Below, one piece after another: positions 9,558 to 39,244 of a stretch of 39,244 nucleotides of DNA. The notes beneath the pieces were generated by a model. It searched no databases. It saw only the letters and a list, made by a program, of their open reading frames with translations, and had not been told where the DNA came from. Each line of letters starts with the position of its first letter. The first letter of the stretch is position 1. Origin of the DNA: a virus; IMG/VR virus record IMGVR_UViG_3300037488_001249, positions 1 to 39,244 of that record; one strand, given 5' to 3'. The translations under genes and the position numbers were made by a program.

Positions 9558-10462
9558 AAAATCGAGTTGAACTATTTCTTGCATTATTTAGCACGTTAGT
9601 TTTAGTTGGTTCATCGACTTATCGTAATCCTGTTCCTGGTACGTATATGGGATCTAGTAAAAATTCTTATCCGTTAGCGAACAAACCGTCTTTTAGTGCT
9701 CCTGTATTTGACTCTACTGCAGTAGTCGCGCAGATAGGTACCCCAGTATGGGCGGATATAGCTGAGACGATTCATTTTCTTACTCCGATTATAGTTACTA
9801 ATGGAACTAATTATGATTATTATTACCGATATCACACACTAACGAGTACGTGGGATACGGATAATCTATGGGCTGCGTGGGTGCATGATAGTGCCGAAAT
9901 TACAGTTGGTGATAGTATATTATTTAGTTCAACCACGGTAACTGCGCGTAGTGCTCGTGAGTGGGCAGTCGCGGGACTAGATGGATACCAAAGTATGGTG
10001 CAGATAAATGACAGTCATTTTTACTACTCTCCATGGTTGGTAGCTCCCGCGTATGTACACCCTGATACGTCTGGTCCCGCTAGTTTGATTGGGGACGTAC
10101 AGTATACGTACGCATGCGGTGATTATCTATCCGCGACTATAGATACAGTTAATGTTTCGTGTACCTATCCATGTTATACTGATGGTGATATGGTCTACAT
10201 TAAATATCGATGGGAGTGCATTGCAGGTTCAAACATAGGCTACACAGATTCTACTGAGTATGAATTACAACCACTAATCTATGAGGAAGAGTATTTACGT
10301 ACATTTGTAATCACTGCGAATACATGTGTGAATATTTGCATGGATTGTACAGAACTTGAAATGTATATTAAAATTAAGACTAGGGATCGTTATACACCAC
10401 TTGAGGCGGTGGAATCATTATGGATATCTTTCGCAGAATTTCAGTTGCCATGTGGAAATTAG
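9548..10462 (+). CDS. Exported cysteine-rich protein (signal peptide)
   Basis: 304 residues starting MVVKNRVELFLALFSTLVLV: basic N-region, hydrophobic core and likely cleavage near residue 25. The mature part is beta-rich and has many cysteines in its C-terminal half (YTYACGDY, VSCTYPCYTDGD, NTCVNICMDCTEL, LPCGN), as expected for a disulfide-bonded protein folded outside the cytoplasm. It overlaps genes on both sides (10 bp before, 43 bp after), so it is probably co-translated with the subtilase. No family is recognised. It could be a partner, receptor or inhibitor of the neighbouring protease; that is speculation. Confidence 0.65.
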   Translation: MVVKNRVELFLALFSTLVLVGSSTYRNPVPGTYMGSSKNSYPLANKPSFSAPVFDSTAVVAQIGTPVWADIAETIHFLTPIIVTNGTNYDYYYRYHTLTSTWDTDNLWAAWVHDSAEITVGDSILFSSTTVTARSAREWAVAGLDGYQSMVQINDSHFYYSPWLVAPAYVHPDTSGPASLIGDVQYTYACGDYLSATIDTVNVSCTYPCYTDGDMVYIKYRWECIAGSNIGYTDSTEYELQPLIYEEEYLRTFVITANTCVNICMDCTELEMYIKIKTRDRYTPLEAVESLWISFAEFQLPCGN

Positions 10463-23000: not shown

Positions 23001-25053
23001 GATAGTAGGAAAATTAAACGAGTTTGTTGATAATCTCTGGTCGCAGTATTTATTAGCTCAAGTGGCACGTCGTCAACGTTTCGGGCGTGTCGATGCTAAA
23101 GCGTTGGAGTCTTCGTCGGCACCTTTTAAAGCTATGGTAGAGTCTGGACAGCCTACGTCTAGATCTCTCACGGCACTGATTGCTCAGTTAAGAAATACGA
23201 CAGACTATACTCAAGCAGTAGAAGATATCCCTTATGATAGCGTGTTCTTCGATGCGCGTGGCACTAGTACAGATATTGTTGACGCATTAAAATATGCTAC
23301 TAATCACGTTAATAAAGAAATTCATATGCGTGAACCACTTGATGGATTAGAAGCTATTATTATGGATGCCAAGGGACGTGGAGCTTATGACGAGGCCGCA
23401 TATACACAATTACTTGCGAATCGACTTAATGGAGTACCTAATTTTATAGATGATTCAGTTCGTAGTACACGTGCCGCTAGTATTGCACACTTACCTATAA
23501 AAAATGAGTGGAAGACATGGCTACTTAAACATGCCCCGACAGGATTAGAATTATCCCAGTTACAAACACGTGCAATTTATAATGGTGCATTGATGCTGAA
23601 TACTGGATTTGCATTTAAGAATTTATTTGGTACATTAAATACAGGTGCAAGATTTAATCGTGCGCGTACTATGAGTTCTCTATTTCAATTTTTTGGAGAC
23701 ACTAAATTACTCAGTGGTACTGATATGGCCGGTAGTGCCAATCTTACTGCGGAAGTGGCTGACTATTTTATGTCTGCGACTCCCCGTAGTAAATTATATA
23801 TGAAAATAAATGGTATGACAATGGGCACGGAAACTTTTAATCGCGGCGTATCATTTATGGCTGCAATGGATAGTGAAATTGAACGTTTAGTTGATCTTAA
23901 ATTACTAAAAACTGGATCAATGCAAGAGATACTCGATGCAGGACTGCTTGAACATTTTACTCAATTAGGTATGGATGGTGCATTTGAAACCCAACATATT
24001 TATGGTCCTAGTGCGACACCCCCATTTTTTGCGGGAGGCAAATTAGATCCAGGTGGGTCGAAAATATTAAATCCTCTGGGGCAATTTATTAGTTACGTCC
24101 CTAAACAAATGCATGCAGCTTGGAGAATGATCGCTGACGGTGAATATTCTTCATTTGTACGTATGGTGATGTTAACCGGATGGACTAATAGATGCTTAGA
24201 AGCTCAAGGTATTGACGGGTCAACATTTGTTGGACTCACTACAGGAGTTCCTGCGGGCGGGTCTCCAGCACTAATGGGATATCTAGAAATGATCGGGTTC
24301 TTTGCTAACGTGACTACTAATATGCCTCAGGCTAAAATTCATTTAGATAAATGGGTACGTATTATGGCGCTAACTGCTGCGGGAGCAGTTGGATTAGGTG
24401 CTGTTGAACTTACTCGATTAGCTACTGCAATTAGAAATGAAAATGCGGGTGGTAAGATGACTGCTAGCGGATCATTGGCTAATGTGCGTGGTAAGCGTGA
24501 AAAAGTTTATGATTTAATTGGAATTCCTACTATACAAACAGCTAAATCTCAGGCATTAAATGCACGTGCTCAGGCATATACAGCAGTAAAATTATCTACT
24601 ATCGCAGGTGCTTCACGTGAATTATTAGATTTATTCAAGGAAGCACAGGAGAATGGATTAGAAACTGCAGACATGAAGGAGCGTAGAGATGAATTAATTT
24701 CAATGTTAACTGCTGAGCAGTGGGATCCACGACCAGCTATTAAATCTGCGAGAGAAAGAGAAGCCGTTGATCAACCTACGCGTTCATTACTTGATGGAAG
24801 ATTAGACGGACTAATCGCAGTACGGAAAGAATATGGATTACTACGAGAATGGGTAAACGTTTCAGAACATTTCTTACGTAAATCAATGGGCGATGAAAAA
24901 TATGTTGAATTACGTAAAGCACTCACTGGCGACACACCTTATGCAAATGACGCAGCATTCGCGCTCAGTCAAATTGATTCTACTACTCATGCTGAACGGA
25001 ATAAAATGTGGGAACGTCGCGAGCCTGAACCTACTAATCCGGAGGAAGAATAA
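20029..25053 (+). CDS. Giant internal virion/ejection protein 1 (1674 aa)
   Basis: 1674 residues from the ATG at 20029 (TGATG overlap with the previous stop). The first ~60 residues are a Pro/Thr/Ala-rich disordered leader. The long middle is helical and highly charged. Hydrophobic or amphipathic segments cluster in the last third, notably around residues 1180-1210 (LMLNTGFAFKNLFGTLNTG) and 1444-1463 (IMALTAAGAVGLGAVELT), as in proteins that form a trans-envelope channel. I find no polymerase, transglycosylase or protease motif. Size and place match T7 gp16-like or other podovirus ejection proteins. The stop overlaps the GroES-like start (TAATG). Confidence 0.68.
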   Translation: MAEPTKDIYSSLKVSTNAPVTADAPVVSSTPTAGRLLPMDPATPPVDWRIIDGSTQPSMATGPVSDLAARDMGNGLTRPLGPAANFISDVFTGQPIAEGAMRVIRTTPSATEKFYNLFTNGAYPIRRMLGFAEQGKRWLEAQGTNLWNTIDGKAFDSELQRGLALSVLTDEMTPDEAIKLGALVYTGGDVDWTIFGQALQLLRGEIPKNRTDEQQKLITTLDRGGSLTTDISEDTWWRTVTSEQTMDYLDSLAIVDFQALLSDDQKTQLPQLAKIAKQMDVSVADVARLTTFLFNDPLAADTYVDAARGIARIGSLRNKLKSLWAAGEATAEMVDDVVRKNVVPKGESPEKAYARAEKMKRTEARRQALREIHAAEIADKSQGGILKVLNKVAGHIAPDLQESVHLFRQYWTERSAAKINFYNHMMETDPKATLRSAEENTRLVDDFARNTFPNFAQWNSDIRFRAALSNAGIVRTDSPKLVRIYGELADAIKLGDQSAIRTKWLEADALTKQLDQADNWLSDDPPIMVALHTMIQDFEGDKFLQHSYAELTEDPTLIESLARYFATLPSPSPYDTRTDVSDLRRTAFAEALNASGLNEWAANAVRRVDFDPAEFMKRLRRMPQTPEALEELRLVMQNAQLVHTRYRAVWRRLRQGTSEYPGMSAEAARKRLAELSADMSIGLMSAREGFQQGTRSVSGASSIADLVDIDDNTLFRINVKRDPRVRDMLKAGRKSGYDPDSKSILLHPVDWFVGDMYFKKFLRKQGLQIRAAEVLMHDWMQETNQVLMPILERMLPRARDRILRTDGGRSSRRQLIGKMMSWSETLTPSEIIKYSSPSGVTLNPERIKLITLEANKPRLEKIKLLTQTRDQNILLEQMINADILKWDTAHPLDPEAWTGGKYKIGNRKVTIGSRQDWRHIIRDMGQIESDIKTESAQIINSPQAVRDFYAAQQMPMTFNLQAYLVDHPTAFDEVDSAGNVIHQEITDEDIQIVGKLNEFVDNLWSQYLLAQVARRQRFGRVDAKALESSSAPFKAMVESGQPTSRSLTALIAQLRNTTDYTQAVEDIPYDSVFFDARGTSTDIVDALKYATNHVNKEIHMREPLDGLEAIIMDAKGRGAYDEAAYTQLLANRLNGVPNFIDDSVRSTRAASIAHLPIKNEWKTWLLKHAPTGLELSQLQTRAIYNGALMLNTGFAFKNLFGTLNTGARFNRARTMSSLFQFFGDTKLLSGTDMAGSANLTAEVADYFMSATPRSKLYMKINGMTMGTETFNRGVSFMAAMDSEIERLVDLKLLKTGSMQEILDAGLLEHFTQLGMDGAFETQHIYGPSATPPFFAGGKLDPGGSKILNPLGQFISYVPKQMHAAWRMIADGEYSSFVRMVMLTGWTNRCLEAQGIDGSTFVGLTTGVPAGGSPALMGYLEMIGFFANVTTNMPQAKIHLDKWVRIMALTAAGAVGLGAVELTRLATAIRNENAGGKMTASGSLANVRGKREKVYDLIGIPTIQTAKSQALNARAQAYTAVKLSTIAGASRELLDLFKEAQENGLETADMKERRDELISMLTAEQWDPRPAIKSAREREAVDQPTRSLLDGRLDGLIAVRKEYGLLREWVNVSEHFLRKSMGDEKYVELRKALTGDTPYANDAAFALSQIDSTTHAERNKMWERREPEPTNPEEE

Positions 25054-25448
25054 TGCCCGTCCGTCGTAATCTTACCCATGGTTTAATCGGTGATCGTATT
25101 TTAGTGGATGTGGATAAAAATATTACATTCCAGCCCATGTTTGATAGAATTTTGGTGGAGCCTATTGAGACTAAAACTAAAACAGAGGGTGGAATTATTA
25201 TTCCGGAGACCGCACGTATCGAAGAAACTATGGGTAAGATAGTAGCCACTGGCCGCGGTCATTTTGACGAACAGGGTAATTACATTGATTCTGAATGTCC
25301 ATTCAAAGTTGGGGATACCGTTATCTTTAAGGAGTTCACTGGTACCCATATTACATTAGGACCGCAGCAGAAAAGTTATTTAATTATGTGGTACCGCGAT
25401 GTACTTGGCGTCCTCAAGAAGGAGCCGATCAGTGCCCGAACTGAATAA
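25053..25448 (+). CDS. groES: GroES-type co-chaperonin (Cpn10), phage-encoded
   Basis: 131 residues; typical GroES is about 95. The core begins at residue ~29 (MFDRILVEPIETKTKTEGG). It includes the mobile loop with the hydrophobic tripeptide III in GGIIIP, the ETMGKIVATG strand, KVGDTVIFKEF (the GD.V.F roof/base strand) and the final DVLGVL. It should cap GroEL and change the folding chamber, as T4 gp31 does. The 28-residue N-terminal extension contains GDRILVDV, an apparent partial repeat of the core's DRILVEP strand. The gene is coupled by TAATG to the giant protein upstream and overlaps the next giant gene by 17 bp, implying coordinated production with these proteins. Confidence 0.9.
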   Translation: MPVRRNLTHGLIGDRILVDVDKNITFQPMFDRILVEPIETKTKTEGGIIIPETARIEETMGKIVATGRGHFDEQGNYIDSECPFKVGDTVIFKEFTGTHITLGPQQKSYLIMWYRDVLGVLKKEPISARTE

Positions 25449-28400
25449 TCCTATTCCTGTTGACCAAGAGGTTACGACACCACCTTCCGCTCCTAATGAA
25501 AAAGAGTGGCGGGTACCTATGATGCCGACTACACAGGTGTCTGATCCTATCATGCCTGTTGTAGATAAATTATTAAATAACCTTGTAGTACGTGGTGGAC
25601 AATGGAGTGCGTGGGGATGGTTAGATCCTATTCCAGGGTATTCTAGAGTTGAATCTGCAGTATTGGGTGGTACTGGAAGTGCATTAGCACGAAGAACTTC
25701 ATGGCTCCAAGAAACTGGGATAGGTACTAGAGAAGCTTATTTATCTGAAGGACGGAAATATGCACCAGCTGACGTAGCACAAACTTATCCCATTTCGTGG
25801 GCTCCTAAAGAGCATCGTCCAGATCATTTACCCATGATGATCCCCGACTTCTTTTTACCTACTAAGCGTGGGCATAATGAACGAACAGAGTTTGCGGCGC
25901 AACTATTAGATTTTAATTCATTATTACCAGATTGGTTAAATCCATTAGGTATTGTACATGGAATTTTAGCAACTGGGGCTGGATATTTTGCTAGTCGTGC
26001 ACGACGTGCGTTTTTAGATCCGCAAAATATTCCAGCTGTAGTACGTCAAAGTGAAGGTCGTAGTGTAATGTCTAATCTATATCGTGCACATATCGACGAT
26101 ATGAATGGACAAACACGCCCATTATTCGATTGGAATTTAGCTTCGGGTACTAACGAATGGATGGCAGAGTCATTAACGCGTAGCGCTACGGCTGCAATAT
26201 ACAATCGATATCACGCAGATAAAACAGTTCGTGATGCATTAATGGATAATGCTCCTAGAGAAAGCTCTCACTTAATAGGGCAATCATTAAGTGAAATGGT
26301 TGACGATCCGCGTAGATTTGGATACGCTAAATATTGGGAAAATTTACATAATGTTGGAACAGATGATGCATTACGCGCAGAACATCGACGCATTAGATAT
26401 GAATACTTCGGAGCCCTTGCTCATGATGAACTAGCAATTCCATTTACAAATCCTGCTATTTATGGGCCGTCAAAATCAGTGGTAAGTGATCCTACTAGCG
26501 CGCGGGTTAGTCGGGCTGGGCGCGACCAAGTTGTCCACGCACTCACTACAAAACGTATTAATCAAATTCATGAGTGGGATAAAATTACTAATGCGGGGGA
26601 AGATAAGGTATTAGTAGCTTATTTAGCATTACCATTGAATAGTAAAAAACGTAAGACATTTAATGAACGTCAACTGGCAGCCGGATCATCTGAATGGGTA
26701 GAAACATTTGGTGAATCGTATATACCTATTCCGACACGACGAGAACGTAATGATATGATATCTGAAATGTCTATGCTTGAGTTAGTTTTTGGAAATCATA
26801 TTAAACCTAAGAGTCATTTAATAGATATGATCAAACGCGGAGACACAGATAATCTACCCCGAATTCCTAAAGATGCTAGATATGCTGGTTATCAGGGAGC
26901 GGATGAAGCGTTTTATGTAAATCAGCCTCCTTCTGATCTCATGAAGCAGTTTTATGATATTGCTAGTAGTGAGGGGTGGCTTGGTATTCCGGCTAGTGAG
27001 CGAGCATTTATCGAGAATCATCCTGAATATCGAGATTTATTTTTTAATCCAGAAGATAATGACGGATCAATGCGCTTAGCTTATTTGATGCGTGCAGATA
27101 AGTCTTATATTGCTGCAATTGAAGAGGCTAATCGTAAGGCACGAAGACTACCTTCAGGTCACTATTCGACAGATAGATTACCATATGCTAAGTTTCCTTA
27201 CGGATTAGATATGGGTCCTGTGGTAAGAGTTACAAGTAATGACATATTTGCAGAAACTATTAATGTTGGGGACTACGTTACATTTCCTGAAGGTAATTTA
27301 ACTAGTCCAGATATGTTAACGGGACTAGCTAATTTTACTGCTACATTGGATGAATTTGCTAATCATGGGGCTACTCCAACATTTGGATTGCAAAAGGCAG
27401 CTGCAGCGCATCAAGTTATCAGTGAAAACATACGTCATCGATTCCCCGGTAAAGAGTCCGTCATGGCTTATGATATTCAATCGAATATGTATTATGATCG
27501 TGCTAGCGTACTAGATCGGGCTACGCAAGAATTTACGGATGATCTTCGAGTTAAATTAAATATTGCACCTAACGAAGATATTCCAATACGTGACTATGAA
27601 AAACATTTTAACAGATTAGTAGATAATTATATTACACGTAGTAGTGCAGTGAGCGGAGATGTGCGTGCGGAATCATTAACTCCGTTACAGGGTAAATGGT
27701 ATAATGAAGCAGTTAGACGTACCGGGACTGGTCCAGACTCACGACGTACAATGATAGAAGGTGAGCATAGATTTACTGCATTTATACGTAAGGATCCAGC
27801 ATTAGTAGGAATGGTGCCATTTAGTACTTATATTGATCGCGTACTTACCGGTGCATATAATCGTGAATATCCGGGCCTAAAAATTGCTACACCAAGTGAA
27901 GAAGTATTACTTAATATGGGTAGAGCATCCGAGACAGCTACAAAGGGATTTAAAATTTCGATTCCTACGCTATTAGCTAATGGTGCAGTTATTAATTATC
28001 ATGGTCCACTAACTGCTACTAATGCATATATTACATCTAATGCGCCTTATTGGAGTGGATTTCAGATCGCCGGAATGACTAAATATGGTGCAGAAACTAT
28101 GATGCAGATACTGCAAGAGAATCGTGCATTATTATTACGTAATGAATCATCTGCATTAACTGTAGATGGTACGCTAACTAAAGTGGGTCAATTAGTAGAG
28201 GATAGTCGTACGGCACCTATTTATATTACAGATTATAATTCATTTTTTATGACTAAAGATACCGCATTACCGCAGAAAGGTACTACTGAATATGCAGGTA
28301 AATACGTGCCAGGAGAAAGTTATGGATCAACTATGGCGTCTAAATTAGTTGCTTCCGTAGCTCCCTGGAAACGTCTAGATGAGCTGACATTACAAAATCT

Positions 28401-30144
28401 TCATGAAGTGGCGCAGAAAAAACACTGGACTAAAGTTGAATTTAGTGACGCCATGGTAGCCATTCGTGAAGACGCTGTTCATGAACGTCCTCCATTAGTA
28501 TTCGATGAATTAGGATCGATAAACGATCCAACTTTAGCCCACCCAGCTAATCAAAAAATCATCTCAGATTTAACGGCTACTGATCTACTTCAACGTGATA
28601 ACGTGGTAAAATTAGAACTGCCTAAAGGTGAAGAAGAGTGGTCTGCTAGTTTAATTTATGACGGATATATGCGACATCTCCGTCCTATTATGTTGACACG
28701 TAGTGTAGACGTATTTGAACGACTTCATAAAATGGAGGGACTTAATAGATTAGTACCTACGCCCGATAATATTAATAAATTACGCACCACAGTCGAAGAA
28801 ACCGCAATGTTTCTACCTTACTATACTTCTGTAGTTGGTCAAGATCCTATGGCTGAACACACGTTAACACAATTAAATGACGGACTCATAGATTTAACTA
28901 AGTTAATTGGACATCCCTCATCCACACCTGAATTAATACAGACACGGTTTGATGAAGCTACCCGTGCTTTGCAACTATTAAGTACACATATGCAATCAAA
29001 CTATGGCGCGTACTGGAAGATCCAGGCTGCTGGCATGGGACTATCTCATAGTCGTTTATTTGTAATGCTCGAAGCTAAGGATAATGAAATTTTAGGTAGT
29101 TTAAATTCATTTCTGACTCAAGCTGATGAGTATTATTATTCGCTTCATCAAGCGTTGGGTAACGATCCGAAGCGTGTGCTCACTCCTAATGAGTCCGCGT
29201 TCGTCATGAAAGATTTATTAACTAAAACTACCACGGGTGTGTCCAAGCGAATGACACAGCAGGATGTTGAGTCAGTAATGCCTAATGATTGGTATTATGA
29301 ATTAAATGCATTAGGTGATAGTTTTGTAGGTGAAAATAGTATAATTACACGTTTACGTTATACACGAGCTCAGCAGCAAATTTATCGATTAGGTAGTATG
29401 ATGGATGAGATGGCTGCGTCACGTAAAGTTCCTACGCCAGATCAGTTAAAGTTATTTGATAGTACTTATGACGAAGTACGTAGTATAGTACCTATAGTGC
29501 GTGAACGTATCGTCATTAGTAGACTAGAGCAGTTGGCTGCCAAAGTTGGCACTAATGCAGCAAAAGGCGCTTCAATTTATGCGAAAGCATTGACAGAAAT
29601 ATCAGCATTATCTGCGTTTCCTATTTTAACTGGTATTGCGGAGCAATATTTTAATGAAAATTCAACTGACGATGAGATTACTATAGGTGAACAGAAAATA
29701 CGTGCTGCGTACAGTGTTCGATCGATTGATAAAAATACTATGGAACTTGGACTACGATATGCACGAACATACAAAGCAGCGAATATCACAGATTCATATG
29801 GTGATATGGTAAAGGAACATGCAGCTACAGCCGCACTTCATGCACAGGAAGTTCCTATCATTAGAGCTATGCGTGCTACTGAATACAAAGATTATGAACA
29901 AACTAAGTTATATCAAAAGATGCGTGATAATCCATATTTTACTCAACTTTATGTAGCTAGCGTATTACACGATTATGGAGCTCAGGGTACGGTGGGATAT
30001 CTACGGCAATTAGAACGTAATACTGGGATGAGTTCTATGGAAGCGTGGCACGAACTACGCTTACGTCCAGAGATCGATTTTGGTGGGAAGGTTGAGTTGT
30101 TAGGTGGAATGATCCAACGCTGGCTGGAGAAACTTTCGGATTAA
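25432..30144 (+). CDS. Giant internal virion/ejection protein 2 (1570 aa)
   Basis: 1570 residues. The start is a GTG at 25432, because AAGGAG lies seven bases before it and the sequence 5' of it is GroES-like coding in another frame. A Pro-rich disordered leader is followed by an amphipathic/hydrophobic stretch at ~166-185 (LNPLGIVHGILATGAGYF) and then mostly helical, charged sequence to the end. No catalytic domain that I can name. It is the last gene of the plus-strand arm, ending two bases before the terminator hairpin. Role as second large ejection/core protein is inferred from position and size. Confidence 0.65.
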   Translation: MPELNNPIPVDQEVTTPPSAPNEKEWRVPMMPTTQVSDPIMPVVDKLLNNLVVRGGQWSAWGWLDPIPGYSRVESAVLGGTGSALARRTSWLQETGIGTREAYLSEGRKYAPADVAQTYPISWAPKEHRPDHLPMMIPDFFLPTKRGHNERTEFAAQLLDFNSLLPDWLNPLGIVHGILATGAGYFASRARRAFLDPQNIPAVVRQSEGRSVMSNLYRAHIDDMNGQTRPLFDWNLASGTNEWMAESLTRSATAAIYNRYHADKTVRDALMDNAPRESSHLIGQSLSEMVDDPRRFGYAKYWENLHNVGTDDALRAEHRRIRYEYFGALAHDELAIPFTNPAIYGPSKSVVSDPTSARVSRAGRDQVVHALTTKRINQIHEWDKITNAGEDKVLVAYLALPLNSKKRKTFNERQLAAGSSEWVETFGESYIPIPTRRERNDMISEMSMLELVFGNHIKPKSHLIDMIKRGDTDNLPRIPKDARYAGYQGADEAFYVNQPPSDLMKQFYDIASSEGWLGIPASERAFIENHPEYRDLFFNPEDNDGSMRLAYLMRADKSYIAAIEEANRKARRLPSGHYSTDRLPYAKFPYGLDMGPVVRVTSNDIFAETINVGDYVTFPEGNLTSPDMLTGLANFTATLDEFANHGATPTFGLQKAAAAHQVISENIRHRFPGKESVMAYDIQSNMYYDRASVLDRATQEFTDDLRVKLNIAPNEDIPIRDYEKHFNRLVDNYITRSSAVSGDVRAESLTPLQGKWYNEAVRRTGTGPDSRRTMIEGEHRFTAFIRKDPALVGMVPFSTYIDRVLTGAYNREYPGLKIATPSEEVLLNMGRASETATKGFKISIPTLLANGAVINYHGPLTATNAYITSNAPYWSGFQIAGMTKYGAETMMQILQENRALLLRNESSALTVDGTLTKVGQLVEDSRTAPIYITDYNSFFMTKDTALPQKGTTEYAGKYVPGESYGSTMASKLVASVAPWKRLDELTLQNLHEVAQKKHWTKVEFSDAMVAIREDAVHERPPLVFDELGSINDPTLAHPANQKIISDLTATDLLQRDNVVKLELPKGEEEWSASLIYDGYMRHLRPIMLTRSVDVFERLHKMEGLNRLVPTPDNINKLRTTVEETAMFLPYYTSVVGQDPMAEHTLTQLNDGLIDLTKLIGHPSSTPELIQTRFDEATRALQLLSTHMQSNYGAYWKIQAAGMGLSHSRLFVMLEAKDNEILGSLNSFLTQADEYYYSLHQALGNDPKRVLTPNESAFVMKDLLTKTTTGVSKRMTQQDVESVMPNDWYYELNALGDSFVGENSIITRLRYTRAQQQIYRLGSMMDEMAASRKVPTPDQLKLFDSTYDEVRSIVPIVRERIVISRLEQLAAKVGTNAAKGASIYAKALTEISALSAFPILTGIAEQYFNENSTDDEITIGEQKIRAAYSVRSIDKNTMELGLRYARTYKAANITDSYGDMVKEHAATAALHAQEVPIIRAMRATEYKDYEQTKLYQKMRDNPYFTQLYVASVLHDYGAQGTVGYLRQLERNTGMSSMEAWHELRLRPEIDFGGKVELLGGMIQRWLEKLSD

Positions 30145-30924: not shown

Positions 30925-31265
30925 CTCCACGGTCTCGCACATGATCCAGGAGGGCCGGGATCATAAGGAGCGCTAGCTACGGAGCGGAGTCCTGTTCTAT
31001 TGGTTGCATCACGAGCGACCACCCTGACATATTCCACACTACGGTTATGCGTAACGTAACCGAATGTGTCCTGCACGGTTGAATACAAATGGCAGGTATT
31101 GGAATCTGGACTGCAGACATAGATGTCATAGCTGGTTGCAATAGATCCAGTCGTTGGGGCGCGCCAATGATAGGTATACCCGACGATCTGACTTCGTACC
31201 GGTACGACGGCGATGGCGATGAGGGTGGCGATTCCGATTCCATATCCAATCCATCCCTTCCGCAT
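30921..31265 (-). CDS. Exported fibronectin-III-like protein inside the replication operon
   Basis: 114 residues. The start ATG at 31265 shares a base with the polymerase stop (TAATG) and has AAGGAGG seven bases upstream. Signal peptide: MRKGW then GYGIGIATLIAIAVV, cleavage likely after VRS (about residue 25). The mature domain has the Fn3 strand pattern: YHWRAPTTGSIATSYDIYV, then VEYVRVVARDATNRTGLRS, then Pro-rich DPGPPG. It is odd among replication genes. Early expression plus export suggests a cell-surface role such as superinfection exclusion, or a decoration; both are inference. Confidence 0.6.
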   Translation of the reverse strand: MRKGWIGYGIGIATLIAIAVVPVRSQIVGYTYHWRAPTTGSIATSYDIYVCSPDSNTCHLYSTVQDTFGYVTHNRSVEYVRVVARDATNRTGLRSVASAPYDPGPPGSCARPWR

Positions 31266-33172
31266 TACCATACCTCCTTGGAATCCGACCAATTACCTAA
31301 ACATTGTTTGCAGCATACTACAATAGGAATGGGAGCGAACATCGACCAGTCCTCCATTAGACGTTTCACCTCCTTATGAAATTCGGGGGTATCATCTTTT
31401 TCACGCACCTCAAACATAATTTCATCGTGCACTGTATTAATCTCATGCGCATCTACATCACGTTCTGTGAACATTTCATCAACACGTACCATACTATATT
31501 TCATGATATCGGCTGCAGTTCCTTGAACCAGATAGTTAAGTCCTTTATAAGCTTTCTGAGGATCGCATCTGAATCTTCTACCGAATGCTGATACCACACC
31601 TCCGGTCGTGACCACGGAGCGTTGACAGTCGTGCATAAGAGTCTTGAGTCCTGGGTAAGTTCCGAAATAGCGACTAAGAATTCCCACGGCTCTGGATTCT
31701 GGAATTCCGTATCCGGTAATAAGTTTTTTGAGACCAACTCCGTAGAGCACACCAAAGTTGACCATCTTACAAAAGGAACGCTTGGCAGGGTCAACTTTGC
31801 CACTTCCGTCCGGATCGATCCAATCGTCTGGGAATACAGCCTTAGTAGTTGCAGTATGGATATCTTCTCCACTATTAAACGCAGCGCACATGTTTTCATC
31901 TCTAGAGTAGAAGGCGGCAACACGAAGTTCGACCTGGCTATAGTCAGGGGCATACATGTTATATCCGGGTCTTGAAATAAGTGCTCGTCGAACATCCGGA
32001 GTTTCATGACGATCGAAATCTAGTAATCTTCCAGATTTGACGCTCGGTATTGTATGAAATGATGGATCACGTGAACTGAATCTCCCTGTTTTAGTACCTG
32101 CTTGCCAGAATGATGGATGTATCGCACCATCTTTTCCGGTAACACGCACAAATTTCTCAAAATAAGTTCCTGCCATCTTATCCAGCATTCGCATATCCAT
32201 GACTAAATGAATTAGCGGATGATCGTAGAGTTTTAATACATTACGTGCTGTTGACCACGCGCCTGATTTAGTTTGTAAAATGTGTCCAAAATGTCTTCGT
32301 TGTTCAACGGTTAAATTATCTTGTAGACGCATTTCATAAAAAAGTGCATGTGCTAGTTGCTTTGATGAGTTAACATTAATTGGATAGCCCACAATTTCAT
32401 TAATTTTAAGTTGTATACGTGCTTGCCATTCTCTACAATTAACGGCCTGAGCTTTTGCATAGGGAATATCACAGAGCATTCCACGTGCTTCCATACGTCC
32501 AACGAGTTCACATAATTTACGTTCATTATAATAAAGATCGCGCTGGTTTTGATCCTGTAATTTTGGAAATAGTCCACGGTAAAGTGCCATAGTATATTTA
32601 GCATCATCTAATGCATATTCTAATAGAAGTTCTTCGGGTACATCTGTGAATAATGAACCGGGATGTTGTTTCATCCACTCTTTTAATTTAAATTCAGATG
32701 AGGTATCTGCCTTTAGTAGCCATCGCGCCAATACTTTTAATCCGATGAGTTTTGCATCTGGAAATACTAATCTAGCTAAGATCATTGTATCGTGACCTAA
32801 TCCTGCAACTGGCCAACCAGCCGCTTTAAGCATTTCCACATCGAATTTAGCATTATGGTATACTTTAGTCATTTCTGGATTACAGATCATATTCCACAGG
32901 TCTTCCATAGTTTGGATGGCCTCTGTTGGCTTTACCAGCCGCCAACTGGCTAGCCAAGGGGGTGGCCGCCCTAGCCCCCATACCGCCCGCACAGCGGGGT
33001 CTGGGCGGCCTAGCTGGGCTTCTACCCCCCCTTCACCGGGGGCCAGGCGGGCTAGACCAGTATTTCCCTGATAGTCACTAAATGTAATTACAAATGGATA
33101 ATCACCATCCCAATAATGAAGTCCTGTAGTTTCCGTATCAACCGCGAATGTGGTTTCCGGTGTCCCATTCAC
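31265..33172 (-). CDS. Family A DNA polymerase (3'-5' exonuclease plus polymerase)
   Basis: 635 residues from a GTG at 33172, weak RBS, overlapping the ThyX-like gene by 35 bp. The exonuclease is intact: FAVDTETTGL (Asp12, Glu14), VYHNAKFDVEML (Asn107, Asp111) and YALDDAKYT (Asp190). Polymerase motifs: A YAPDYSQVELRVAA (Asp410), B RSFCKMVNFGVLYG (Arg465, Lys469, Phe473, Tyr477), C INTVHDEIMFEV (Asp583). No 5'-3' nuclease domain. Residues about 38-80, between exonuclease strands and the next helix, come from a GC-rich palindromic patch, giving a Gly/Pro/Arg/Trp-rich loop. It is the replicative polymerase of the phage and works with the primase-helicase upstream. Confidence 0.95.
   Translation of the reverse strand: MNGTPETTFAVDTETTGLHYWDGDYPFVITFSDYQGNTGLARLAPGEGGVEAQLGRPDPAVRAVWGLGRPPPWLASWRLVKPTEAIQTMEDLWNMICNPEMTKVYHNAKFDVEMLKAAGWPVAGLGHDTMILARLVFPDAKLIGLKVLARWLLKADTSSEFKLKEWMKQHPGSLFTDVPEELLLEYALDDAKYTMALYRGLFPKLQDQNQRDLYYNERKLCELVGRMEARGMLCDIPYAKAQAVNCREWQARIQLKINEIVGYPINVNSSKQLAHALFYEMRLQDNLTVEQRRHFGHILQTKSGAWSTARNVLKLYDHPLIHLVMDMRMLDKMAGTYFEKFVRVTGKDGAIHPSFWQAGTKTGRFSSRDPSFHTIPSVKSGRLLDFDRHETPDVRRALISRPGYNMYAPDYSQVELRVAAFYSRDENMCAAFNSGEDIHTATTKAVFPDDWIDPDGSGKVDPAKRSFCKMVNFGVLYGVGLKKLITGYGIPESRAVGILSRYFGTYPGLKTLMHDCQRSVVTTGGVVSAFGRRFRCDPQKAYKGLNYLVQGTAADIMKYSMVRVDEMFTERDVDAHEINTVHDEIMFEVREKDDTPEFHKEVKRLMEDWSMFAPIPIVVCCKQCLGNWSDSKEVW
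32946..33060. repeat. GC-rich nested palindrome, patch B, inside the DNA polymerase gene
   Basis: About 115 bp. Imperfect inverted ends CTGGCTAGCC (32946-32955) and GGCTAGACCAG (33050-33060). Nested inside: AAGGGGGT (32956-32963) with ACCCCCCCTT (33024-33033), GGCCGCCC (32964-32971) with GGGCGGCC (33003-33010), and an apex hairpin CCCGC-ACA-GCGGG (32986-32998). All arms are in nested order, so the whole segment can fold back on itself. The polymerase frame is kept. Flanking sequence is AT-rich phage-like. Looks like an in-frame palindromic insertion; origin unknown. Confidence 0.65.
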
Positions 33173-33974
33173 GTCCCCACACCCTTTCTAAGTTATTAAG
33201 ATTATCAATGCATCGTTTAGAATGTGCCCAACTATCGGCATCGTCATGAGGAATATGCTCCTCATGTTGCATCCAAATAGGACATGTGGGTTGCGGATCT
33301 ATCCCCTCGTATCTCTCCCTCATGATTTCTCGGACGGTGCATCCTGTGTGTTTCCATAAGTGGTCTTTGCACGGAGGGAGATTGAGTCCGGCAAATGCTC
33401 GGTGCTCATTCGCGAGGATCTTAGCCACTTGAAGAAGGACAGGCGTCCAAAGATCAGTCTGAGCATTCCAACACGTCCGCTTGTGGAACCGGACCATAAG
33501 CGCCTGAAGGTTTGTTGTCCAGATCCCGCGGTGTAGGGTGCCGACAGGTACCAAGTTTCGGTATTCTGAAGGATTGAGACCAAAAGTAGATGCTCTGCGT
33601 GCGAAGGATTTAATGTCTGCAACGATTCTGTCAAAATCCTGTGCGAGTTCAGGTGTTGCTGCCACCTTTGGCGGAACGTCGACTCTGAGTTGAGTAGCGT
33701 AGTCAGTGATTCTTCCACCTTGGATGAAATAATCATCGTACTGTGAGCGCACGAGTTGCTCTCGGAACGATATAGGCATGTCTTCCAAAAGGAACGTGAA
33801 TTTGAGGTGTCGTACAACGGGCACTTCTTCACGGACCAATTTGAAGATAAGATCCTTATCAATGATGGGATCGTCCATGGACACTGGTCCGCAGTCATGA
33901 GCAGTCCTCCAGATTGTTTGGATCAACTCCTCTGGATGCGATGGTGATGCTAATAAGGTTACTTTAATCCCCAT
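33138..33974 (-). CDS. Divergent ThyX-like (flavin-dependent thymidylate synthase family) protein
   Basis: 278 residues from the ATG at 33974, with GAGGAG upstream. The ThyX core is seen in RHLKFTFLLEDMPISFREQ (family E-H-x-x-F-x-F-x-I-E) and in NLQALMVRFHKRTCWNAQ (family N-x-R-x-L-x-x-F-x-x-x-R-x-C-x-x-A-Q). The signature RHRxxSxxxxSxR is replaced by R76-S-Q-Y-D-D-Y-F-I-Q-G-G-R88: the His, the second Arg and the Ser residues are gone. A Cys-containing C-terminal extension (about 200-235) is also seen in some phage ThyX proteins. Normal ThyX methylates dUMP with folate, FAD and NADPH. The altered motif may mean a changed pyrimidine substrate or chemistry, or loss of activity. Confidence 0.65.
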   Translation of the reverse strand: MGIKVTLLASPSHPEELIQTIWRTAHDCGPVSMDDPIIDKDLIFKLVREEVPVVRHLKFTFLLEDMPISFREQLVRSQYDDYFIQGGRITDYATQLRVDVPPKVAATPELAQDFDRIVADIKSFARRASTFGLNPSEYRNLVPVGTLHRGIWTTNLQALMVRFHKRTCWNAQTDLWTPVLLQVAKILANEHRAFAGLNLPPCKDHLWKHTGCTVREIMRERYEGIDPQPTCPIWMQHEEHIPHDDADSWAHSKRCIDNLNNLERVWGREWDTGNHIRG

Positions 33975-34554
33975 TGCGATGCTCCTCAAGAAGTTCAATG
34001 GCCTCACGGATGATCATAACCAGCGTATCATACTCAGCTACTTCAGTGGATACTGTACGTCCATATTCTTCACACTCAGATACAATATCCATAAGATGGT
34101 GATTACCCATACGAAGTTCTTTAATGATATATGCTACTACGGCGAGAAAGTCTGCCACTTTAATGATAGCTCCCTCGAGATCATTTTCTTTTGCATCTTC
34201 CCAGTCACTAAAAACTTCTAATCCGGGGTTGCCAAAGGGCAACATTAATTTTAACATAAAATCATTAGCTGCTTTAGCTATTTCTAGGCGTAAAGATGGA
34301 TTAGCGTATTTAAATGAACGTTGAAAATCTCCAGTTAAAGACTCATCTAAATCGTGTGCTACGGCACGTCCAAGAAGTGTGCCCATTAATACCGGCGTTC
34401 CCATACGGCGACCTATGATCAATGCATAAAGTGCTACGTAGAAACTATGTTCCGCAACCGTCTCCCTTGCAATCACAGGACGACTCGAGTAACGAAAAAC
34501 ATGACTGGCACGCTGAAGGTTCCCACAGAGGAGGGCTTCTGTAAATGCTTTCAT
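33964..34554 (-). CDS. HD-domain 5'-deoxynucleotidase (YfbR/DatZ-like)
   Basis: 196 residues, close to E. coli YfbR (199). HD metal ligands: His36 (VAEHSF), His67-Asp68 (AHDLDE) and Asp135 (KVADFL). Also YfbR-like are FRYSSRP at 20-26 near the substrate phosphate and ESLTGDFQRSFKY at 71-83. YfbR hydrolyses dNMPs to deoxynucleosides; the DatZ branch of this fold in 2-aminoadenine phages destroys dATP. Sequence alone does not choose between them. The start ATG overlaps the deoxyribosyltransferase stop (ATGA), so the two are probably made in equal amounts and linked in function: one releases deoxynucleosides, the other exchanges their bases. Confidence 0.82.
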   Translation of the reverse strand: MKAFTEALLCGNLQRASHVFRYSSRPVIARETVAEHSFYVALYALIIGRRMGTPVLMGTLLGRAVAHDLDESLTGDFQRSFKYANPSLRLEIAKAANDFMLKLMLPFGNPGLEVFSDWEDAKENDLEGAIIKVADFLAVVAYIIKELRMGNHHLMDIVSECEEYGRTVSTEVAEYDTLVMIIREAIELLEEHRNGD

Positions 34555-34994
34555 TCAATGGCTCCTTCATATTCATATCTGATTCTTTCAAGATCTGATT
34601 TGGATTCAATACTATAGAGTATTCGATTGAGTTCAGAGGTGGATCGGATGACAATCGTACCTGACTCAGCGAGCATAAGATTAAATGGTTTATCTCCAAG
34701 AGTTTCTGCAAAATAGATGATTGACTTACCGGATCTATATGCATATCCGCATTCGAAGATAGTTCCAACGTCTTTATGATCCGTGACTGCCACGAGAAAG
34801 TCAGCGGCGCAAATGTGAGTAAGATTTTGAGTAAAGGCGACCCGTCTTCGGTCCTTTGAATCATTTGGGCGTACCTCTAATTCATGTTTAGGTGAAAATA
34901 TCTGATGCCGGGATACCTTGAGAACTGCATGCACACGCTCATGAATATCAGCCTGTTCTGTACTAAACCACGGGGCTGCGTAGTATATCTTCAC
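34551..34994 (-). CDS. Nucleoside 2-deoxyribosyltransferase
   Basis: 147 residues from a GTG at 34994 preceded by GGAAGGAAG. This start gives the canonical N-terminus MKIYYAAPWFSTEQ; it overlaps the primase-helicase end by 32 bp. Family motifs: beta1 Y-Y-A-A-P-W-F, AADFLVAVTDHKDVGTIFE with Asp72, Asp75, GT 77-78 and the catalytic Glu81 (E-x-G-x-A), then GKSIIYFAETLGDKPFNLML. The enzyme transfers 2-deoxyribose between purine or pyrimidine bases. In this operon it could recycle deoxyribose or build unusual deoxynucleosides. Confidence 0.85.
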   Translation of the reverse strand: MKIYYAAPWFSTEQADIHERVHAVLKVSRHQIFSPKHELEVRPNDSKDRRRVAFTQNLTHICAADFLVAVTDHKDVGTIFECGYAYRSGKSIIYFAETLGDKPFNLMLAESGTIVIRSTSELNRILYSIESKSDLERIRYEYEGAIE

Positions 34995-37821
34995 CTTTAA
35001 CTTCCTTCCACCAGTCGGGGTTTTTAATTGCTCTGATACGTGTTTTACGAAGCCACTTAATGAATGGTTCTCGTTTAGTCCACCAACTATGCTCAGCACG
35101 TATGGCTCTTAATGATACTAACTTATTTCGGACGTCTTTAGCAAGCTGCCAGTCTATGTCCAAGCTTGCCTCGATACCTTTTACGGAAATTTTAGGGACT
35201 TCCAACAAATCACCGATCCATTGATTGGATCTCTGCTTGTAACTAGCGAAGAGATTTTCAAGCTCCCGTTCGGATAGCAGTGACGATCTCTCGAACTGTA
35301 GAGCAGAGTAGACGTCGTAGGCCATCGCGTCACTATCGTATAAGTATTGGAGGAAACCGACAGCATAGCTTGCACAGGCTGCGGTAACACGTATACATTC
35401 TCCCGTATCATCCGTTGAAAACACTCGGCCGGCAACGGCCACAGCCACTTTTGCAATTTTTTCCCTCGCATTCTCCGCTTGGATTAACGGAATTGAATGA
35501 TGATATTTCTTACCTAATGCGACAGACGCTTCAAGAATAATATGAGTTGCTTCGTCAGTGAATTGAATTTGACTAGGTTTTCTAGACCAAATCCATAAGA
35601 TTAAATCACGGCAAGCTTGCTGCAATTCTGGGCGTGATTCAACCTCAATACCTCGTCCCGCATTAATAACTTCAGAGTCAACTTCATCTGATGCAATTAC
35701 AATGACGTAGTCGAATCTGGCGATGTCTTCTTTTCGCTCAGCCATAGTGAGTACTGACTCGACACCGTGTTCAAACTCTCTAATCCCCCGTCCGTCTGCA
35801 GGATTAGCATTCCAGATAGTGCGTGTTCTAGCCATAGTACGTTCCGTAACAATCTTAAAGACTTCTGCGACACCTTCGGATCTAACCCTCGACATTCTAG
35901 ATAGTGTGTCTCCCGCGACAGCACTAGCTTCGTCAATGATGACCAGGCGTCGATCATTCCGTGGAATAAATCCCCAAGTAACTGCCCACGATTTTCTGGC
36001 TCCCAACTGCTGGACACCTCCAATGAGTCCAGCAAAAGTACAATTTTCTCCTGATGCCACTTCTCCAACTCCGAAATACCTCGACAATCTTTCAGTAACA
36101 TATCCTTTACCTGTTCGAGTATCACCCATGACAAGGACGTCCAACCACCCCCGCTTAATAGATTCGTTGTTGAAATTAAATCCAAGGGCGGAGTGGAATA
36201 CAAGATCAACTGCCTGATGGAGAGCTCGTCGCTTATAGATTTTGGTAATTCCGATAGCGCAGTATTCATAGAAATCGTCGAGGAAATTATGGATGCTGGT
36301 GAGGGAATTACCGGATGGAAAGATCCGTCGTAATTCATTTTTTCTATCCTCAGTTAAAATGAATCGATCTAGTTGGTCAGCAGCATATTCGTGATCAACA
36401 ATAAGAAACACAGCGTGCTGAGTATCTGGATCAGGATAGATATAGCCCCTAAACACATACGTAGCATTCGCATCCAAATTATAGGTTTGAGCCAATGCTG
36501 TACGCATGACATATTTAAACTCGCAGTCATCAGATACTTCCTCTATTGGAGCGACTAATTTTAATTCCTCCATGTTAACTGATTCTAATACATCAATACG
36601 TACATTACATCGTCCATTACATTTAGCCCACTCTTTGATATGAGAATGTAATTGACCTTCAGTACAATTAGTGAGCCCTAAAGTTCGCTCATCATGGAGG
36701 TCGATATTTAGTACTGTAACATACGGCTCAGGTCCGGAACATACGGAACATTTGCGTTCCGGTTTAGTCATGCATGTTAATTTAACACGCTTAGGTACAA
36801 TGTAAGGCTGCACATCCTTACCTGCAACGTGCGCCTTAAATTGGATTGGTACGCCTCTCATGAGGGAGTGCGCCGCGTCCTGTAGTTTGATCTCCTTAAA
36901 TAATTTTTTCTGGACCACTTGTGGTGTAGTAACGATTATCTGCCCGGAATCTACTATAGCACGTAGTCCTTCGATAGTGCCTTGATGACGAATAATATAG
37001 TCCGTTAAATCTATCCCAGGTGTTTCATACCGAGCGATTTTAAGGGTGCGGGCTTTGGATGTTAAACTGGCTGCGATACGTTGGCTTCCATCCCAACCAG
37101 GTTGATCATTATCGAGAAGTACTATAACACTATGGTCCTCAAGATAATTACTAAATTCCTCGTTCCAATAGCCCGCACCACCGGTACTGCAAATGCAATT
37201 AAGGCCACACTGACGGCCGAGAAGTGTATCTAATTCACCTTCTGTGACTATTACTTCTGGACCATTCAATGCGTTTATGGGAAATAGTGCTGACCGTCCA
37301 TAACCTTCAGCATAACTGATCATTTTGGCTTCGGATTTTCTAGTGATATCATACCGACGCACATTGATGACCATACCAAACTCATTCTCCACAGGGATTG
37401 TCAGTCTCGCCCCGTCAAAGCCGAGTTTGTAGTACTGAATAGTCTCGACGGTTAGGCCACGTTCTTGCAGTAACCATTTCTGTACTATAGGGGTAGCCAT
37501 TAATGTTCTATGCCATTCCAATGCAGTTTCAATAGGCACTGTAGGACGTACATACTTAGAATAAATTTCCTTCATAGCATGTTGGAAAGGAACTTGATGC
37601 TTCTTAACGTAAAATCCAATAAAAGAAGTTCCACGACCGTCACACTCACCACTGTGACAATAATATTCTCCTAGTGCGTCAATATTAATAGATAATGACG
37701 GATTTAAGTCGTCGTGAAATGGACATATTACATTCTGACCTGGAATATAATTATCCAATTCGGACTTATAAAATTCCTCTACATTCACATGACTATGAAG
37801 ATACGCCTGCAGTGTCTGCAT
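34963..37821 (-). CDS. DnaG-type primase fused to MCM-like AAA+ replicative helicase
   Basis: 952 residues. Residues 1-70: zinc ribbon with Cys33, His36, Cys55, Cys60 (CPFHDD, YYCHSGEC). Residues ~100-290: Toprim primase core with Glu194 (VTEGELDTLLG) and Asp237/239 (IVLLDNDQPGWDG). Residues ~300-430: middle region with several Cys (CMTKPERKCSVC, CNGRC), position of an MCM N-terminal OB/zinc domain. Residues ~525-715: AAA+ with GDTRTGKG (566-573), VASGENCTFAGLIGGV, Walker B VIIDEA (627-632), sensor WNANPADGRG (N673) and an ARFD arginine-finger motif (R702), the MCM order. A winged-helix-like C-terminus follows. Phage primase-helicases usually use DnaB or SF3 motors instead. ATG three bases after the previous stop. 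Confidence 0.85.
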   Translation of the reverse strand: MQTLQAYLHSHVNVEEFYKSELDNYIPGQNVICPFHDDLNPSLSINIDALGEYYCHSGECDGRGTSFIGFYVKKHQVPFQHAMKEIYSKYVRPTVPIETALEWHRTLMATPIVQKWLLQERGLTVETIQYYKLGFDGARLTIPVENEFGMVINVRRYDITRKSEAKMISYAEGYGRSALFPINALNGPEVIVTEGELDTLLGRQCGLNCICSTGGAGYWNEEFSNYLEDHSVIVLLDNDQPGWDGSQRIAASLTSKARTLKIARYETPGIDLTDYIIRHQGTIEGLRAIVDSGQIIVTTPQVVQKKLFKEIKLQDAAHSLMRGVPIQFKAHVAGKDVQPYIVPKRVKLTCMTKPERKCSVCSGPEPYVTVLNIDLHDERTLGLTNCTEGQLHSHIKEWAKCNGRCNVRIDVLESVNMEELKLVAPIEEVSDDCEFKYVMRTALAQTYNLDANATYVFRGYIYPDPDTQHAVFLIVDHEYAADQLDRFILTEDRKNELRRIFPSGNSLTSIHNFLDDFYEYCAIGITKIYKRRALHQAVDLVFHSALGFNFNNESIKRGWLDVLVMGDTRTGKGYVTERLSRYFGVGEVASGENCTFAGLIGGVQQLGARKSWAVTWGFIPRNDRRLVIIDEASAVAGDTLSRMSRVRSEGVAEVFKIVTERTMARTRTIWNANPADGRGIREFEHGVESVLTMAERKEDIARFDYVIVIASDEVDSEVINAGRGIEVESRPELQQACRDLILWIWSRKPSQIQFTDEATHIILEASVALGKKYHHSIPLIQAENAREKIAKVAVAVAGRVFSTDDTGECIRVTAACASYAVGFLQYLYDSDAMAYDVYSALQFERSSLLSERELENLFASYKQRSNQWIGDLLEVPKISVKGIEASLDIDWQLAKDVRNKLVSLRAIRAEHSWWTKREPFIKWLRKTRIRAIKNPDWWKEVKGEDILRSPVV

Positions 37822-37823
37822 AA

Positions 37824-38330
37824 TTACCAGCCTGTGTTACGTTTGTCCGTACCTACAGGGCTATCTACTGGACTACCACTAGCTATCCATGCGGGATGAG
37901 ACTCATGAATTAATCTGACTACAGTTAGATTCATGAAATCTCCACTATTCTTAACCCTTCCAATAAAAACACGTAACGGCATAAGACCTACAGCATCACG
38001 AGCCTCCTCCATTCCAGAAGGCTGTCCTAATCCTAATCGCCGGCACGCTAACTTAAAGTATCCCATTGATCGCATATCAGGCTGACCCTGCGCATCAGTA
38101 AAACGTAAGTCATAAGAGCGTACAGGCATGCCCTGGTATTCACCATCAAGGATGACACAATCGAGTTGAATATGAATACGATCAGAAGACTGAGCCTTTT
38201 TAATTTCAGCAGTATTAATCAACATAACATATTCATTATCAGGAATAGCGAATCCGCCCTTATCATTAACCTCTACGCGCTTCATAGACTCATCAAGATT
38301 ACCAAGCATACCCAACAATTCGTCACTCAT
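37824..38330 (-). CDS. ssDNA-binding-like protein (DUF669-type, putative)
   Basis: 168 residues, start TAATG-coupled to the ATPase gene. Beta-barrel-like pattern: EYVMLINTAEIKKAQ, IHIQLDCVILDGEYQGMPV, then a helical MRSMGYFKLACRRLGL and strands LRVFIGRVK, ending in a disordered polar tail (about 150-168). The phrase 'strand... G.YKG..V...Y.L' and the pairing with a Sak4-like ATPase match DUF669/SSB-like phage proteins. Binding of single-stranded DNA is inferred. The tail lacks the acidic tip of bacterial SSB. Confidence 0.55.
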   Translation of the reverse strand: MSDELLGMLGNLDESMKRVEVNDKGGFAIPDNEYVMLINTAEIKKAQSSDRIHIQLDCVILDGEYQGMPVRSYDLRFTDAQGQPDMRSMGYFKLACRRLGLGQPSGMEEARDAVGLMPLRVFIGRVKNSGDFMNLTVVRLIHESHPAWIASGSPVDSPVGTDKRNTGW

Positions 38331-39085
38331 TAGATTCTCTCTTTCATTGCTAATTCGATTGATCTGGCCTGTGTGATGGCATCCATAATACCTGCATAGG
38401 AGACGTCGTCAATCGCATCTGGCATGTTACTCTGTCTTGCACCGGATTCATACTCAAGTGTCGGCTTACAATAAATTCGCCTCACCGCCCTTTCAGGAAT
38501 ATCGTTATCGGAACTTAGGTAGAATTCAAAATCTACCAGTGGAAGGAGAACTCGACGTGCCTGATTAGTTAGATTGGGCACTATCTTCGACTTCTTAATC
38601 CCACGAATAGTGGCTTCGATCTCCTTATGATGAGCGATAAATACTACACCATATCCTTCAGATGTAAGATATCGCATACCATTTTGAAATTCATCGCGCA
38701 CCATCGCCCATCCTTTACCCCAATCCTCCTCTGATGGGTGTTGAATATTACGAGTTAAGCAAATATGATTCTCGCAAGCCATGTAGAGTAAGTCAATAGT
38801 ATCAATCACGATAGTTTTAAATCGTTCTTTAGCCTGAGGCATTCGTAACTGTTTTACTAAATCTTTAAAGTCAATCCAAGTTGCACACGGTTTGCGTACC
38901 ACACTGACAAATCGCTGACCAGCTTCAGTTGCGATAAAGAATGCATCTGGAAAGGTGGCCGCTAATGTTGTTTTACCAATCTTCGGTGGCCCATAAATTA
39001 ATACGAACATCTGGCTAAGATCAGTTACGATAGGTTCCGGCTCCGTGGGGAGCGTGAACTCGTCACCACTCTTCTGAGTCTGCAT
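38330..39085 (-). CDS. Sak4-like RecA-fold ATPase (AAA_24 family)
   Basis: 251 residues from the ATG at 39085, chosen over the TTG two codons upstream because GAGGAG lies seven bases before it. Walker A GPPKIGKTT (32-40), then FFIATEAGQR, Walker B TIVIDTIDLL (91-100), and YGVVFIAHHKE with the sensor Gln/His position, the pattern of phage AAA_24/Sak4 recombinases that anneal ssDNA with an SSB partner. The next gene downstream is an SSB-like protein, which supports this. It overlaps the nuclease gene upstream by 23 bp. Confidence 0.8.
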   Translation of the reverse strand: MQTQKSGDEFTLPTEPEPIVTDLSQMFVLIYGPPKIGKTTLAATFPDAFFIATEAGQRFVSVVRKPCATWIDFKDLVKQLRMPQAKERFKTIVIDTIDLLYMACENHICLTRNIQHPSEEDWGKGWAMVRDEFQNGMRYLTSEGYGVVFIAHHKEIEATIRGIKKSKIVPNLTNQARRVLLPLVDFEFYLSSDNDIPERAVRRIYCKPTLEYESGARQSNMPDAIDDVSYAGIMDAITQARSIELAMKERI

Positions 39086-39244
39086 TTGCAAGCTCCTCGT
39101 GAGATTCGACCTTAAGACGGAAATTTACAGTATCATCTACCACACCAGATCCGCAGATAGAAAGGAATTGACACCCACTGTAAATACTACAGGGCGCCAT
39201 ATTTTTACGCCACGCATCAGTTTTATACGTACGTAGTAAGTCAT
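39063..39244 (-). CDS. C-terminus of a RecB/Cas4-like PD-(D/E)XK nuclease (runs off the right edge)
   Basis: The last 59 codons and a TGA stop at 39065-39063; the frame is open to the window edge. The fragment includes DAWRKNMAPCSIYSGCQF followed by LSIC: W-x-x-N-x3-C-x2-Y-x2-C-x-F-x3-C, the cysteine cluster that ends many phage RecB/Cas4-like nucleases and in some holds an Fe-S cluster. Catalytic residues would lie beyond the edge. Position before Sak4 and SSB-like genes fits a recombination exonuclease. Confidence 0.6.
   Translation of the reverse strand, partial: DLLRTYKTDAWRKNMAPCSIYSGCQFLSICGSGVVDDTVNFRLKVESHEELANADSEEW

Follow-up and report, generated by a model that had tools for sequence, protein, structure and literature searches.

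A phage protein combining a DnaG-type Toprim primase and an MCM helicase in one chain, and its recurrence in phage genomes

Known primase-helicases and the layout of the fused protein

The T7 gp4 protein carries a zinc ribbon and a compact Toprim primase before a ring helicase, and its primase serves a motor of the RecA/DnaB type that moves 5′-3′ while riding on the lagging strand. A partial precedent for a Toprim primase working with the opposite polarity is provided by Toprim-SF3 proteins (e.g., P4 alpha). MCM helicases in phages and fusions of MCM with an AEP primase have already been described (PMC5862659, PMC4538821); among the latter, BcMCM from a Bacillus cereus prophage is reported in PMC4538821 as a 3′-5′ helicase with primase and polymerase activities, with reference to McGeoch and Bell 2005, Samuels 2009 and Sanchez-Berrondo 2012. 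The protein considered here (P0001) resembles each of these systems in part. Like T7 gp4, it places a zinc ribbon and a Toprim primase before the helicase, and the primase halves of both proteins are detectably related, but its motor is of the MCM type instead of the RecA/DnaB type. With AEP-MCM proteins (BcMCM and that of phage vB_BboS-125) it shares a homologous MCM half and an N-terminal primase, a comparison made, as regards BcMCM, through proteins of the same architecture, whereas their primase comes from the unrelated AEP superfamily. Like archaeal and eukaryotic MCMs, its predicted fold includes an OB/zinc N-tier, an AAA+ domain with a helix-2 insert and a pre-sensor-1 (PS1) hairpin, and a winged helix; it differs from them by having no domain A, a primase being fused instead, and by a very long branch from archaeal MCMs. 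Toprim-MCM is a variant architecture that stands beside the already known phage MCM and AEP-MCM proteins.

P0001 is a protein of 952 aa encoded on the minus strand at 34963-37821 of the window, i.e., the whole stretch of DNA analyzed, which is a linear IMG/VR virus record of 39,244 bases. This is one intact open frame, with an ATG start and without internal stop; within this frame, Pfam places Zn_ribbon_DnaG, Toprim_2 and MCM, all above the curated cut-offs, and PHROGs independently assign DNA primase families to residues 28-281 and a DNA helicase family to residues 528-720. Following the chain from its N terminus (all features being on the minus strand), the CHC2/DnaG zinc ribbon occupies residues 31-90 (37552-37731; PF01807) and the primase RNA-polymerase core residues 97-292 (36946-37533), the latter being recognized by PF13155, by DnaG and T7 gp4 structures and by the acids of its Toprim domain at residues 191-275 (E194, D198, D237, D239, D271 and D274). 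A linker at about 293-325, whose residues 300-305 have a low pLDDT in the model, leads to the MCM N-terminal OB/zinc domain at residues 326-485 (36367-36846), which is identified by hhalign to archaeal MCM, by model strands and by four cysteines (C350, C358, C361 and C405) conserved in 68 of 69 sequences. The AAA+ core covers residues 525-716 (35674-36249; PF00493), with Walker A at 566-573, Walker B at 626-631, the sensor-1 residue N673 and the arginine finger R702 located by residue conservation and alignment to archaeal MCM. It is followed by the AAA+ lid at residues 731-845 (35287-35631), delineated by model helices and hhalign, and by a C-terminal winged helix at residues 851-935 (35017-35271), with an H-H-H-H-E-E pattern in the model and an alignment with the archaeal MCM C-terminus. 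The OB/zinc domain and the winged helix are additional to the features given in the initial annotation, whose residues (C33, H36, C55, C60, E194, D237 and D239) and motif series (GDTRTGKG at 566-573, VASGENCTFAGL, VIIDEA, WNANPADGRG and ARFD at 701-704) are all present in the protein.

Assignment of the motor half

Sequence, profile and fold searches with the C-terminal half all give MCM, in agreement with the earlier proposal of an MCM motor as opposed to an SF3, DnaB/RecA or sigma54-activator one. Indeed, the Pfam MCM family (PF00493) matches residues 525-716 with 33.3 bits against a cut-off of 23.3 (E 3.5e-8), and no other AAA+ family in Pfam matches P0001 at E<=1; Pfam MCM_OB gave no score on the protein. 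A PDB sequence search with P0001 placed MCM2 at the top (E 1.2e-6), the next 40-odd matches being MCMs, and the C-terminal half of a 69-sequence profile reached MCM2 (6u0m) at E 3.7e-11. Against a profile of five MCMs encoded by archaeal viruses and plasmids, hhalign gave a value of 99.3% (E 2e-20) over 528 columns running from the OB domain through the winged helix at 17% identity, with Walker A/B, sensor 1 and the arginine finger of P0001 aligned. This alignment starts at archaeal residue 109, past domain A and at the place where P0001 carries its primase and linker; therefore, MCM domain A is absent and the primase stands in its place. Note that domain A is dispensable for assigning the AAA+ motor to MCM. 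In addition, K572, E631, N673 and R702 are invariant in all 69 aligned full-length sequences and K656 at the pre-sensor-1 hairpin is found in 63 of them, so that, as judged from the aligned sequences, the conservation of P0001 residues and motifs is far above chance.

The predicted structures point to the same family. AlphaFold modeled the full-length protein with a mean pLDDT of 91.7 and a pTM of 0.70, and the MCM half alone with values of 92.0 and 0.89; since the full-length pTM is only 0.70, the model does not fix the arrangement of the primase relative to the MCM half. When both models were compared with the PDB by Foldseek, the top 50 matches were all MCM (best E 9.5e-23 and 1.2e-20), without any SF3 fold among them, and these matches span the OB, AAA+ and winged-helix domains with a TM-score of about 0.6 over about 660 columns at ~14% identity. 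The helix-2 insert (strands 601-606/611-616) and the pre-sensor-1 hairpin (strands 651-655/659-663), singled out beforehand as the decisive structural test, are both found in the AlphaFold model. A motor of another AAA+ type (SF3, Mg-chelatase, sigma54 activator or SCCmec Cch-like), whose MCM match would reflect general AAA+ similarity, could be argued from the low identity to solved MCMs in the fold and hhalign alignments and from relatives that fall just below the Pfam MCM cut-off, but the absence of any competing Pfam AAA+ family in P0001, the extension of the top 50 fold matches over three domains and the presence of both MCM hairpins in the model make such a motor very unlikely. From sequence and model together, residues 326-935 are assigned to an MCM helicase composed of an OB/zinc N-tier, an AAA+ domain and a winged helix, without domain A. 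The expression ‘archaeal-type motor’, used at first, holds as a label of family membership but not as a statement of recent archaeal origin, since the MCM halves of phages group together in a single clade that is very distant from the archaeal proteins.

The primase half and the replication-gene neighborhood

The CHC2 zinc ribbon and the Toprim acids claimed for the N-terminal half were confirmed, both Zn_ribbon_DnaG (residues 31-90, 26.6 bits, E 5.5e-6) and Toprim_2 (residues 191-275, 27.8 bits, E 3.4e-6) exceeding their Pfam cut-offs, and the primase half of the 69-sequence profile matched Aquifex DnaG (2au3, E 1.7e-25) and T7 gp4 (1nui, E 8e-10) in the PDB. On these similarities, residues 1-292 are assigned to a DnaG-type primase with a zinc ribbon and a Toprim core. 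In the aligned full-length sequences, E196 and D237 never change, E194 is found in 61/69 and D239 in 65/69, and at least one of E194, D198, D237 and D239 is changed in 17 of the 69 sequences; as read from this alignment, the primase part is under weaker constraint than the motor across the 69 sequences. These 17 cases, as well as the loss of zinc ligands in some relatives, would fit a primase half that no longer primes, in which the zinc ribbon and Toprim region would persist only to bind DNA or as a regulatory relic, leaving the protein with helicase function alone. However, P0001 itself is intact at all six Toprim acids and at C33/H36/C55/C60, two Toprim positions (E196 and D237) never vary, and the search for the AEP family (DNA_primase_S) detected no other primase anywhere in the record, so that we consider an inactive primase quite improbable and retain a functional DnaG-type primase as the preferred reading.

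Some relatives carry particular changes in this half. D198K within the EGExD Toprim motif was observed in L031, L061, L062, L067, L074, L075, L083, L085, L086 and L088, several of which also carry E194G, and the primase of these D198K relatives may be altered or inactive. In three others (L016, L017 and L018), all four CHC2 ligands are gone (C33S, H36I/V, C55S and C60D) and the Toprim acids are retained.

The fusion gene lies in a series of replication genes ordered as Sak4, DUF669, a 2-base gap, the fusion gene, nucleoside deoxyribosyltransferase, YfbR-like HD phosphohydrolase, ThyX, family A DNA polymerase and RuvC-like resolvase. On the minus strand, the Sak4 recombinase (Sak4-like ATPase/annealing protein) is found at 38330-39091 (phrog_124, E 7e-43), the SSB-like DUF669 protein directly upstream of the fusion gene at 37824-38330 (PF05037, with a weak PHROG SSB match), and the family A DNA polymerase with 3′-5′ exonuclease (PolA) at 31265-33172 (PHROG and Pfam); these three recur near the fusion gene in several relatives. 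Neither DnaB_C (PF03796) nor D5_N (PF08706) has a match anywhere in the record; the record being linear, and either a fragment or unverified at its ends, another helicase or primase might be encoded beyond it. Between PolA and the primase-helicase, ThyX, the YfbR-like HD phosphohydrolase and the nucleoside deoxyribosyltransferase form a nucleotide-pool cassette (33138-35099 of the window, minus strand). On the plus strand, the structural gene region includes a subtilase-family (S8) peptidase of 653 aa (10420-12381; Pfam E 4.7e-12), and the structural module ends with two giant proteins of 1675 and 1581 aa (20026-25053 and 25399-30144), neither of which has a Pfam match, the 1675-aa one being also without a PHROG match.

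The analysis shows which domains the protein contains, the fold predicted for it, the conservation of its active sites, its location among replication genes and its recurrence in many phages. Beyond this, we propose, as the probable reading, that P0001 is a single-polypeptide phage primosome with an MCM ring moving 3′-5′ and a DnaG-type primase on its N-tier; the hexamer, polarity, primase activity and priming geometry of Toprim-MCM are what we infer. Six copies of P0001 would most likely form a homohexameric ring round the leading-strand template, and this ring would move 3′-5′ by analogy with the AEP-MCM protein BcMCM. The primases would be attached at the site that domain A occupies in other MCMs, i.e., the outer collar of the N-tier. 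From there, held by the linker, each zinc ribbon and Toprim core may synthesize primers on the lagging strand, which is excluded from the ring, and the phage’s own family A polymerase would extend them. Since the T7 gp4 primase serves a 5′-3′ motor, a primase of this type would in P0001 be coupled to a motor running in the other direction. Alternatively, the C-terminal winged helix could bind an origin, and many mobile-element helicases are initiators (PMC7581432), in which case P0001 would be mainly an origin initiator or melting factor, comparable to SF3 initiators and to the helicases of SCC elements, and would start replication before host DnaB and DnaG take over. This seems unlikely to us, because the fused primase and the adjacent polymerase of the phage itself favor a fork role and a winged helix is equally a regular part of MCMs that act at forks.

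Recurrence in phages and exchange of the primase

Using the MCM half as the tblastn query, relatives were identified in 52 phage records: 36 Microbacterium, two Arthrobacter and five B. subtilis phages, Weizmannia phage Youna2, two Paenibacillus phages, and two records each for a spring-water siphovirus, vB_BboS-125 and Haloferax tailed virus 1. Pfam found a zinc ribbon and/or Toprim together with MCM in representatives of every bacterial-phage group except vB_BboS-125, the MCM scores of some relatives being slightly below the cut-off. The Toprim-MCM fusion itself is present in about 48 phage records; those of Krampusvirus, Wollypogvirus, Bacillus BSP7/BSTP, Weizmannia Youna2 and Paenibacillus API480/SV21, known as ‘DNA primase/helicase’, have the same architecture over the whole length with 22-30% identity, and the Krampusvirus/Wollypogvirus/BSP7/Youna2/API480 type lies in a replication-gene neighborhood, as does P0001. 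Labels in deposited phages vary (‘DNA primase’, ‘DNA primase/helicase’, ‘DNA primase small subunit’ and ‘DNA directed DNA polymerase’), and the annotations examined for this type do not mention that the motor is an MCM. An IMG/VR scan with a single sequence found no relatives, hence an alignment-based scan was required, which recovered relatives in 346 of 412 candidate stretches. In bacterial genome contigs, no Toprim-MCM was found at the sensitivity of the scan, the three relatives being two AEP-MCM (L093 and L094) and a partial one (L095). One further match, on the fecal contig MT835672, was judged by eye to be a Mg-chelatase-like ATPase of the YifB type and not MCM.

Although P0001 comes from a single metagenomic record, which would leave room for an assembly or gene-calling chimera, this reading is refuted by the isolated phages, whose complete genomes carry the same fusion, as do hundreds of contigs. 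Moreover, mass spectrometry detected gp47 of API480 through 9 peptides (PMC6937236), which means that the protein is made, and the probability of a chimera is practically nil. The initial annotation knew of no described DnaG-Toprim/MCM fusion, and a full-text literature search, outside whose scope lay the survey likeliest to mention one (Kazlauskas et al. 2016), found no published description; however, the fusion is widespread and was already sitting in the deposited records counted above. As a separate observation, genes of the 7-deazaguanine/queuosine type (QueC, QueD-like, QueE-like and GTP cyclohydrolase I) lie right after the primase-helicase in Youna2 (L003, 12042-15205) and BSP7 (L008, 10082-13731), which suggests modified DNA in these two phages.

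In vB_BboS-125, an AEP primase (DNA_primase_S, E 3.9e-10) is located N-terminal to an MCM half that is 26.8% identical to that of P0001 over 614 aa (E 2e-55). AEP-MCM was also found in a B. velezensis linear plasmid and 37 IMG/VR loci, and the AEP-MCM genes of Paenibacillus agilis and a Lachnospiraceae MAG (L093 and L094) adjoin a family A polymerase. As their MCM halves are homologous to that of P0001 while their primase belongs to another superfamily, the primase has been exchanged within the family and the motor retained. In the AAA+ domain tree, Toprim-MCM and AEP-MCM form one clade (support 100/100) on a very long branch from archaeal MCMs, with AEP-MCM as one compact group beside the Toprim-MCM sequences L059 and L060 (support 99/95). 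Constraining all Toprim-MCM to one clade was not rejected (AU p 0.417), and given this result and the extremely long branch to the archaeal root, no direction of the swap is claimed. As a tentative scenario, which we hold to be possible but the weaker bet, Toprim-MCM would be the older and more diverse phage MCM primosome, and AEP-MCM of the BcMCM type would derive from it, the unrelated AEP primase having taken the place of the DnaG-type one while the ring was retained. In such a scheme, either primase could stand in place of domain A and function with a 3′-5′ MCM ring, priming the excluded and not the threaded strand.

Altogether, a single chain joins here a bacterial primase to the archaeal/eukaryotic replicative motor, and this chain is encoded by cultivable phages; a vague annotation in dozens of deposited phages is also corrected. 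Homologous MCM rings with two unrelated primases offer a natural test of the requirements that a helicase imposes on its primase, and of the way the lagging strand is primed while the ring itself moves along the leading strand. MCM is, in this light, a common replicative motor of phages and not a rarity.
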